Source of the DNA: Rhodobacter sp.
GTDB lineage: Bacteria > Pseudomonadota > Alphaproteobacteria > Rhodobacterales > Rhodobacteraceae
Assembly: GCA_020250175.1 (NCBI GenBank)
Contig: JADCEN010000003.1
Coordinates: forward strand, 155,731 to 219,730
Length of the DNA: 64,000 nucleotides
Direction of reading: 5' to 3'
Shown: positions 443-64,000 of the stretch, one piece after another
Layout: every line of letters begins with the position of its first letter
How positions within the stretch are numbered: position 1 is the first letter of the stretch
The notes under the pieces: generated by a model
What the model saw: the letters and a program-made list of their open reading frames with translations, nothing else
Told to the model about the DNA's origin: nothing
The model's database searches: none
Program-made: the position numbers and the translations under genes

Positions 443-1624
443 TCTCGCGGCGGATTTGGATTGGCGTTGAGGGCTGACTCCCTGAAGGGAAGACGCGATG
501 ATGCCGGTTCTGTCGCTTCTGCGGGATGTTCCGGCCCGCCCGCACCGGGAACGCGGCGCATCATGACCTTCCGGCAAAGTGCTGAAAAAGTGCCCGCCGC
601 ATGGACCGCTGGCCAGAGAGCAGGAAACTGTTCCCCAGGCCCCCTGCGGTCTGGCCGGGGCCATCACCCCCGGCCGGGCGGGCAAACGCGCTGCATTTCG
701 GGGTCCGCCCGGAATGGCACCCCCTTTTCCCCGGATTGGGAAGTTTTCCCGCCCGGCAGGCGGCGGGGATGCTTGTTCAGCACCTTTCGGAAGGCGCTGG
801 AGATTGCTGTTTGTGCCTTTGGCTGTCGGCGATGCCGCTTCGCTTTGCCGCGAACCTGTCTGTCGCCGGACTTGGTTCCACAGGCTTCGCTCTGGCGTGT
901 CTTGCGGGCTGTTTCGCTGTCTGCGCCCTGGCCGCAGGGGGTGTCCTGGCGCGCAGCGCCATCCTGGGGATTGCGGCGGTCGTGGCGCGGGGCACGCTGA
1001 TCGGCAAGTCCTGCTTTCGGGGTGCCCCGGTTCCGGTGGCCCTGCCGGGGCCGCAGGCGGCAGGGCCGGTGCCGGTGGTGCCGGCGCACGACCTGACGGT
1101 GTCTTGCCGGGTTTTCACGCGGGTCATGACCGGGATGCGCAAGGGGCAGATGCCACATCGCATCCTTCGCAGGCCGGAACCGGGTGTGCCGGGTGCCGCG
1201 ATGATCTTATCTGCGGCCCCCGGTCTGTTCCACCACGGGTCTTGCCGTTCCGGCGGTGGCGAATGATTTCCCGCCATGTCCCGGGGGCCGCCGCCACGCC
1301 CCGCACGCTGTGTGCCGCCGGTGCTTGGCTGGCCACGCGGGCGGCAAGGCGTTGCATCCCGGCTTTGCTTCTGCAGGCGGGTCATGCATGGCCGTTGCCG
1401 CCCCTGGCCGGTTCTGCAGGCCAGGCCGCAGGCGGCAGGCGTAAGGATTGCCGCCGTTGCACTGGCCTGCCGCAGGCGGCATCTGTATCCCGGCCCGGCA
1501 ATACGGTATTGCACCGCAGGGCGTTTGCACGTCGGACCTGATCGTCGCGGCCGTCAGCATCCTGACCGTCACCCTGGTGATCGCCTGGATGCCGGACTGC
1601 GGTGCCGGGCGTTGAAAAGGAAGA
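443..1624. other. 1.2 kb stretch with no recognisable gene; contains a repeat copy
   Basis: Several overlapping ORFs of 180-320 codons run through here on both strands, but none has a recognisable domain, a good ribosome binding site or a convincing protein-like composition; the translations are rich in Pro, Gly, Arg and Cys as expected for out-of-frame GC-rich DNA. Bases about 681-782 match the dispersed intergenic repeat near 28.1 kb. I see no RNA gene or clear terminator. It may be decayed sequence. Confidence 0.5.
681..782 (+). repeat. Dispersed intergenic repeat, partial copy D
   Basis: This segment resembles bases about 28103-28206 along its whole length. Shared blocks include TTCCCGCCCGGCAGGCGG and AAACGCGCTG, with small indels and substitutions between. 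Both copies lie in the same orientation in gene-free DNA. Only the downstream part of the larger repeat is present; the two 9-bp-stem hairpins found in copies A and B are absent. Confidence 0.65.
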
Positions 1625-7789: not shown

Positions 7790-7985
7790 CTGTGGCAAAG
7801 GCGATGGCCTTTGCCATGGCAGCGGGGTCCGACCTTTCGCCCCCGTCTCCGGGCGGGACCCGGCCGGGGCTTTGGCCCCCCGGCGGGCGTGCCGCACGCA
7901 CCGCGCGGGTGGAAAGGTTTCCGGCTTTCCGTATCCGGCGGCCCTTGCGGCCGGTACTTCGCGCTACCCTTCCAGGCGGGGAAAC
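7790..7985 (-). repeat. Dispersed intergenic hairpin repeat, copy C (inverted)
   Basis: This copy is the inverted form of the repeats at 27.9 kb and 63.7 kb. A 9-bp perfect stem, GGCAAAGGC at 7794-7802 and GCCTTTGCC at 7807-7815 with loop GATG, is the reverse complement of the stem in copy A (loop CATC). Farther right, CGGCCGGGGCTTTGGCCCCC is an imperfect version of the second hairpin. It lies between the transposase remnant and the Rieske remnant. Confidence 0.7.
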
Positions 7986-27840: not shown

Positions 27841-28263
27841 CCGGCGCGAAACGGGTGCGGGCGGAACGGGCCGGCCGGGGGGAAGCGCGGTGCGTATCCG
27901 GGGCCCGCCCGGAAGCGGGGCGAAAGGTCTTGCAGCGCTTCGCCATCCCCTGCTGCCATGGCAAAGGCCATCGCCTTTGCCGCTGAGATACGCTGTCACC
28001 AAGCCCGCCGGGGGCCAAAGCCCCCGGCCAGCGTCCGAACCGCCCCCGGCAGGCGCTGGCCTTTCGTGGTGGGGGGGGGCCGGTGTGGGCGTTCCATGGG
28101 GTGGGGAAACGCGCTGAGTTTCCTTCTCTGCCCGGAACGGCAACTCCTTTCCCCGGATCGGATAGATTTTCCCGCCCGGCAGGCGGTCGGAATGCTGTTT
28201 CAGAACCCTGACAGGCACTTGCAAGGGCGCGCCTGCGGCCTGGGTGGTCTGCAAGTTCCCACC
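27841..28263 (+). repeat. Dispersed intergenic hairpin repeat, copy A (most complete)
   Basis: The gap between the chelatase and galM genes is filled with repeat sequence. A perfect 9-bp stem GGCAAAGGC/GCCTTTGCC with loop CATC is at 27960-27981. A second, GCCGGGGGC/GCCCCCGGC with loop CAAA, is at 28007-28028. The region just before the first stem (27870-27960) and the two hairpins match copy B at 63.7 kb, the first stem matches copy C inverted, and bases about 28103-28206 match copy D near 0.7 kb. I see no ORF with support in it. Confidence 0.75.
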
Positions 28264-63638: not shown

Positions 63639-63725
63639 CCTGCCCGCCACAAGCCACTGCTGCGGGTCCGGCAAGACTGAACAGGGTGGTGATGAGGTGC
63701 CGGTCGCAAGGGCACCGTCCCGCGC

Positions 63726-63868
63726 GGGCGGGGAAACGCGGTGCGTTTCCTGATCCCGCCCGGAGGGGAGGCGGAACTGCGTCGCCGCCATGGCAGGGGC
63801 CATTGCCCCTGCCACAGCGCCACGTTGACCCTTGCCAGCCGGGGGCCAAAGCCCCCGGCCAGTATCCG
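63726..63868 (+). repeat. Dispersed intergenic hairpin repeat, copy B
   Basis: In the same orientation as copy A. The first stem is GGCAGGGGC (63792-63800) and GCCCCTGCC (63805-63813) with loop CATT; compared with copy A both arms have changed so that pairing is kept. The second stem, GCCGGGGGC/GCCCCCGGC with loop CAAA at 63838-63859, is identical to copy A. Upstream, GAAACGCGGTGCGTTTC forms another short hairpin between CGGGCGG and CCGCCCG. Confidence 0.75.
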
Positions 63869-63874
63869 TGTTCG

Positions 63875-64000
63875 TCAAGCGGTTTGTACGGGTCTTGTTT
63901 CGTGCCATTCCCTGTTTTCGCGCAGGAGTGTGTTGGCGAGGATGAGGAGTTTGCGCATCGCGGCGACGAGGGCGAGTTTGGCGGGTTTTCCGGCGGCGCG
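63875..64000 (-). CDS. IS110-family transposase, C-terminal end (cut by window edge)
   Basis: The last 41 codons of a gene entering from the right. The sequence AAGKPAKLALVAAMRKLLIL is the characteristic C-terminus of IS110-type transposases (GKPxKVALxAxMRKLLxxLNAMLR), followed by a short tail ending in QTA and a TGA. The serine-containing Tnp20 domain of this family lies just before this and is outside the window. Whether the element is intact cannot be judged. The repeat copy B lies immediately after the stop. Confidence 0.8.
   Translation of the reverse strand, partial: RAAGKPAKLALVAAMRKLLILANTLLRENREWHETRPVQTA

Follow-up and report, generated by a model that had tools for sequence, protein, structure and literature searches.

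The window analysed here is a 64,000-nt stretch at the end of a contig (G000:C23:155731-219730) in a 3.9-Mb draft genome whose contigs often stop inside the repeats described here. It contains three copies of a 22-nt hairpin with a 9-bp stem, referred to here as HP, at 27960-27981 (+; copy A), 63792-63813 (+; copy B) and 7794-7815 (-; copy C), where the first-pass annotation had placed them. In its full form the repeat to which HP belongs has a unit of about 210 nt, with four hairpins, HP, S2, S3 and S4, in fixed order and an HP loop that is nearly always CATC.

Copy A lies on the plus strand between an intact gene for a CbiX-domain protein and a convergent aldose-1-epimerase gene. Its HP has nine base pairs and the loop CATC, and a covariance model covering the 127 nt from HP through S2 to S3 (model R1) matched positions 27960-28063 with an E value of 8e-11. 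S2 (GCCGGGGGC-CAAA-GCCCCCGGC, 28007-28028), seen both in the sequence and in the R1 match, is followed by a shortened S3 (CAGCGTCC...GGCAGGCGCTG, 28029-28063), placed by the R1 alignment, and by S4 (GGGGAAACGC-GCT-GAGTTTCC...GCCC, 28100-28134), recognised by comparison with S4 alignments from other copies. The same comparison identified a degenerate S4-type hairpin of a preceding unit of this array at 27880-27912. The right end of the element occupies 28130-28214 (profile HMM match 28130-28212, E 8.5e-23), its last part being the inverted-repeat motif CTGTTTCAGAACCCTGACAG.

Copy B, also on the plus strand, directly follows an M24 peptidase gene. An S4-type hairpin (CGGGCGGGGAAACGCGGTGCGTTTCC...CCGCCCG, 63722-63764) stands directly upstream of its HP (GGCAGGGGC-CATT-GCCCCTGCC, 63792-63813; R1 match, E 2e-10), and S2 lies at 63838-63859. 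The copy is interrupted within S3 by the end of an IS110-family insertion sequence (63863-64000, minus strand), which encodes a transposase C-terminus with 77% identity to an IS110 family transposase by tblastn. Copy C, between a pentapeptide-repeat gene and a tRNA, is a truncated minus-strand element. Its HP (GGCAAAGGC-CATC-GCCTTTGCC, 7794-7815) lacks S2, S3 and S4 downstream and gave no R1 match in the search of the window; a diverged second stem (7861-7886), seen in the sequence, lies on the opposite side of HP compared with A and B, and is accompanied by a partial left end at 7902-7959 (HMM match, E 4e-5). A fourth element, overlooked in the first reading, is degenerate but complete (571-789, plus strand), with a left end at 573-668, an HP-like hairpin at 653-674 (GGCCGGGGCCATCACCCCCGGC) which also matches the HP pattern, and a right end at approximately 707-786; the two ends were recognised by profile HMMs with E values of 2e-20 and 7e-18, respectively.

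The first-pass annotation had described three base pairs as changed in copy B. By our count only two differ (AA/TT to GG/CC), both changed on the two sides of the stem, so that pairing is indeed kept between GGCAAAGGC/GCCTTTGCC in A and C and GGCAGGGGC/GCCCCTGCC in B; the loop also differs, being CATC in A and C and CATT in B. The second stem, thought to be invariant in every copy, is so in A and B, but in C it is diverged and lies upstream of HP in the orientation of the element. Similarly, the suggestion that the copies sit near IS remnants or decayed genes holds for the IS110-type element in B, but decayed genes generally do not adjoin the copies, whose neighbours are ordinary genes. The evidence within the window alone is thin, and the difference between A and B marks a few true-breeding subfamilies.

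Copy number and fold of the repeat

The HP pattern GGCNNNGGCCATNGCCNNNGCC had 93 exact matches in the genome, compared with none for a reversed control pattern, and therefore the hairpin is not a chance occurrence. A covariance-model search of the genome and its relatives, as the first-pass annotation had proposed, found many more copies: model R1 identified 105 units in the window's own genome, grouped in 57 arrays of one to five units with a modal spacing of 238 bp, and units within one array, as clustered here, all have the same orientation. Within the window's genus, three sister species carry from 147 to at least 150 units, one species carries a single copy and two congeners carry none. 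Exact scanning of named genomes found close copies in metagenome-assembled genomes (MAGs) labelled Rhodobacter sp. (isolates M53BS1, M051S1 and M090S1), in one pond MAG and in Tabrizicola flagellatus. With a broader covariance model (R2), built from 26 copies from several genera, 32 of 397 genomes of the family gave a match at E <= 1e-5. Complete counts were 54, 40, 35, 25, 12, 3, 3, 2, 2 and 1 in other genera, and 34, 33, 20, 0 and 0 in five species from one further genus. The unit is thus carried by a minority of Paracoccaceae (Rhodobacterales) genera, at 1 to at least 150 copies per genome, and its patchy presence within two genera points to both spread and loss.

Many contigs of four of the drafts (G000, G001, G004 and G005) start or stop inside arrays, so array lengths are underestimated; as repeats, these elements are places at which the assemblies of carrier genomes break. 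The S3 hairpin, often with a preceding S2-like hairpin, is present in many Rhodobacteraceae in the absence of HP and S4 (L099-L105, L110), sometimes between genes of one operon. When plasmids were searched with the core of other genera, nothing but the S3 part was recovered, from Phaeobacter and Leisingera. The S3 module may be an older building block of the four-hairpin unit.

In order to follow the stems across genera we aligned 57 copies (alignment A4), fitted to the R2 structure, a procedure which itself favours pairing. In this alignment 91.8% of cells are paired, and the covariation score is 0.300, compared with 0.098 (s.d. 0.006) in shuffles, none of 500 of which reached 0.300; in controls with slid pairing partners, covariation was at most 0.059. 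HP is essentially ungapped in A4, with the exception of one row, and can be tested with one copy per genus, independently of the R2 fit: among 14 genera, 120 of 126 cells are Watson-Crick pairs against 83.7 expected, and none of 20,000 shuffles reached 120. The arm types found in HP include AGG/CCT, AAA/TTT, CGG/CCG, GAA/TTC, CAA/TTG, AGA/TCT, CGA/TCG, GGC/GCC and CAC/GTG. The eight copies of one genome (G311) have eight distinct HP sequences, of which seven are fully paired and one has a single mismatch. In most copies S4 trails S3 at a distance that varies little (40-60 nt), and its complementary arms take many different forms, with a pairing score of at least 13 in most rows, compared with 12 or less in all shuffled controls but one. 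The folded form is therefore kept while the letters of the arms change. Stem changes are overwhelmingly compensated, both in A4 and with one copy per genus, which supports the original proposal that covariation reflects selection on a folded structure; in the genome-wide and cross-genus search further copies were abundant and substitutions in the stems were not randomly unpaired. The selected fold may be one of RNA or of DNA: in a wobble test (G-U versus A-C), changes in HP and S2 favour G-U on the plus strand and those in S3 on the minus strand, a confounded result that 3' arms of greater variability would also produce.

Evidence for constraint on single copies comes from genus g264, in which all 33 copies from three species (loci L297-L304 and L356-L384) have an identical 22-nt HP of the GAA/TTC type. 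Across these copies identity is 1.00 in HP, 0.59 in the linker and 0.27-0.28 in the flanks, the last being the random level. At two sites that are orthologous between species of this genus, 11 of 50 linker positions differ, compared with not a single one of 44 in HP (p 0.0007), and S2-S3 is also conserved. Constraint on individual copies is supported by these observations, which come from few sites in one genus. In the window's clade, first-unit HPs at orthologous sites often carry single uncompensated changes, and constraint is relaxed in this clade, whose arrays make units redundant.

Gene context, ends and insertion sites

Gene orientation was assigned by a model of codon usage for which the window served as training set, and intergenic regions with the element were compared with the other intergenic regions of at least 150 bp, a small control set of 36. 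Convergent regions account for 37 of 87 regions with the element versus 4 of the 36 others, and divergent regions for 8 of 87 versus 17 of 36 (p ~7e-6). Many borders of the element coincide with stop codons. The strand from which a copy would be transcribed varies, as some copies are sense and others antisense to the neighbouring genes. A scan of one element with an intrinsic terminator consensus found no sites; end hairpins near TTTTT fold only slightly better than shuffles (z from -1.65 to +0.74), so that candidate intrinsic terminators at the two ends are weak, and in genus g264 TTTTT directly follows some of the S4 hairpins.

Arrays in the window's clade consist of a left end of about 105 bp, a variable number of units and a right end of about 85 bp, as recognised by HMMs built from examples. 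Left ends occur once per array and so, as a rule, do right ends, except where the contig stops. Both ends carry CTGACAGGGTGCTGAAAAAG in opposite orientation, and thus form terminal inverted repeats; outside the window's genus such ends were seen in G018 and G032 alone, and there in part. Because of this restriction, the route of mobility used in the window's clade may not hold for the other genera.

Three sites were compared across the genus. In outgroups the upstream gene is the same and the element is absent, and at two of these sites the convergent stop codons of the outgroup touch or overlap (CTAG). One compared site is empty in G005 and another holds an inverted element in G001. The dinucleotide TA is found at 14% of borders, a 12-fold excess over its frequency of 1.1% in the window, and TA, TG, CA and CG (YR) together make up 82%; few intact TA pairs are present at the borders, any target duplications being too decayed to demonstrate. 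The copies are dispersed, patchy and sharply bounded, and lie for the most part immediately downstream of genes and away from promoter regions.

No intact autonomous insertion sequence with matching ends was found by an end-motif search in an assembly that is broken at repeats; the search returned other short elements with these ends, one of them beside an open reading frame with a sub-threshold HTH_29 match. A different element of 160 bp, with the same inverted-repeat ends and TA on both flanks, lies at L350:1500-1660 (G000:C47:53382-53542).

The IS110 junction in copy B, GGCCAG|TATCCGTG, lies inside S3 and recurs in five other broken elements at contig ends, of which two have it at the mirror-image position within S3 (GGTCAG/GGCCAG). 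At one locus (L335, of L329-L335) only the first ~29 bp of the IS110 end are present in an S3-like hairpin, resembling the remnant of an internal deletion. REP sequences are known targets of IS110 (PMC1525189).

Possible role of the hairpins

The interpretation that we favour, with a probability of about one half, is that of a dispersed, non-autonomous repeat that spread in the manner of a MITE in the window's clade and whose hairpins function in RNA at the 3' ends of genes. The units would be transcribed as part of the flanking genes, which are often convergent, either in the 3' UTR or in read-through RNA, and there the hairpins could block read-through, 3' exonucleases or both. If so, a copy would be tolerated or useful and its fold would be kept, and by limiting read-through or decay the hairpins would make insertions at gene ends harmless. 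In the window's clade the composite element would have spread in trans, probably by means of a TA-targeting transposase of the IS630/Tc1 type; such targeting could explain the borders at stop codons, because TA is expected to be rare outside TAA and TAG in a GC-rich genome. The tandem units may then have been multiplied by unequal recombination.

The closest rival to a role in RNA is a purely selfish palindromic DNA repeat, whose hairpins would serve mobilisation only, for example through recognition of single-stranded DNA by a transposase, and whose covariation would record changes in a spreading lineage. The copy numbers that are patchy within genera, the HP types that characterise genomes (GAA/TTC, for example, throughout the 33 copies of one genus), the way in which first-unit HPs at orthologous sites of the window's clade have decayed with no compensating change, and the empty and inverted states at the same kind of site all fit such a repeat. 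Against it, the genome has no Y1/RAYT transposase, HP and S2-S3 at the two orthologous sites in g264 are conserved while the linker diverged, and an HP identity of 1.00 beside a linker identity of 0.59 indicates old copies that are held rather than merely recent ones; we regard this explanation as possible and on balance unlikely. The strong preference for convergent gene ends would be expected if the palindromes were sites in DNA for a nucleoid, replication or topology protein, the position reflecting supercoiling between transcription units. This proposal is modelled on the REP/BIME of enterobacteria, which bind gyrase, IHF or DNA polymerase I, and it agrees with the fixed loop and HP sequence within some genomes and with the 12 to at least 150 sites in multi-copy genomes. 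However, the eight different paired arms in the eight copies of G311 point to structure and not to a fixed duplex sequence, and species with zero or one copy make an essential role in the chromosome unlikely; we therefore consider a protein-binding DNA site improbable.

Two further explanations carry still less weight. A structured non-coding RNA that acts in trans, has a promoter of its own and was multiplied in the genome would suit the large conserved fold, with its several helices over about 210 nt and its fixed loops, but divergent regions are avoided, the upstream flanks are random (identity 0.23-0.29) with no conserved promoter-like block, and no Rfam match in the window reaches the gathering threshold, related loci giving only sub-threshold matches that are weak and scattered, which makes this very improbable. 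Least credible of all is that no fold is selected and that the arms are complementary only because of processes in DNA, for instance gene conversion from one arm to the other, or inversion. The arms are near-perfect palindromes, and units do recombine, giving mosaics such as AGG/TTT hybrids. Nevertheless, four separate hairpins all covary across genera, and at orthologous sites the linker drifts freely while HP does not; inverted HP loops (GATG), which this explanation would lead one to expect as often as normal ones, are seen only in isolated cases.

Arms that all copies of a genome share despite drifted linkers, as in g264, are accounted for neither by pure RNA folding nor by recent transposition. 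A bolder proposal, which we put forward as doubtful, is that in several Rhodobacterales genera, with dozens of copies of the four-helix element per genome, one trans-acting factor of the cell recognises the lineage-specific hairpin, giving a regulon of gene 3' ends, at the level of RNA or DNA, that spans the genome and undergoes concerted evolution. With a single such factor all copies in a genome would keep the same arms while their linkers drift, as in the 33 of 33 copies from three species, and the whole set of arms would shift together between genera.

Relation to known repeats

The repeat belongs, as a new family, to the known kind of dispersed intergenic mosaic repeats that includes BOX, RIME and ERIC. 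ERIC sequences, which are spread over several genera and have stem-loop potential, are alike in being simple dispersed intergenic repeats, but they differ in taxon and sequence, and the repeat described here has four separate hairpins, lineage-specific arms and, in one clade, tandem packaging. The ERIC of enterobacteria are 127 bp long and intergenic (PMC3049150).

BOX elements of Streptococcus pneumoniae have the organisation boxA-boxB(n)-boxC, with two end modules and variable tandem inner modules (PMC3049150), and are similar to the present repeat as composite intergenic repeats with distinct left and right ends, variable tandem inner units and a strong RNA-like fold. They are thought to be moved in trans by insertion sequences with similar ends (PMC3049150), as we infer for the repeat in the window's clade. 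In contrast to the short boxB, the unit here is GC-rich, about 238 bp long and contains four hairpins, and the four-hairpin core also occurs as single copies in other genera, lacking the two ends. The sequences are, as far as seen, unrelated, and homology to boxA, boxB or boxC is unlikely on the basis of taxon and GC content.

RIME (Rhizobium intergenic mosaic elements) and REP/BIME are also dispersed extragenic palindromes, found as mosaics in alphaproteobacteria and targeted by the IS110 family (PMC2873474, PMC1525189). The present repeat differs in its larger unit, its direct tandem arrays in a single orientation and the lack of a RAYT-type Y1 transposase: a PF01797 search of the whole genome for a Y1 (HUH)/RAYT transposase gave no match, while five control genomes were positive. 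REP sequences carry a GTAG or CGTC tag beside a palindrome of 20-40 nt (PMC3733652). No such tag is present at HP, which in the copies listed is preceded by CAAT, CCAT, TCTCT or CTT. With neither the transposase nor the tag, the repeat is not assigned to the REP/BIME mobilised by RAYT. MITEs of the Correia type have inverted repeats of 26 bp (PMC3049150); the repeat shares with MITEs inverted-repeat ends, a lack of coding capacity and border statistics that suggest TA targets, but its ends are not found in most core-carrying genera and no partner transposase was found.

We found no description of this four-hairpin family in the literature searched. The Rhodobacterales, among which are much-studied photosynthetic and marine bacteria, thus gain a large and strongly covarying structured repeat family. 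Its hundreds of copies, with stems specific to lineages and with empty sites as a reference, amount to a natural covariation experiment, and the family brings together hairpins, gene ends, IS110 targeting and insertion at stop codons within a single system.

Rfam searches gave no match at the gathering threshold over the element, with weak and scattered sub-threshold matches in related loci. Separately, near one array, a 6S RNA-like match at L032:3586-3742 (minus strand) scored 42.7 bits, against an Rfam gathering threshold of 46.4, and is probably the 6S RNA gene of that genome.
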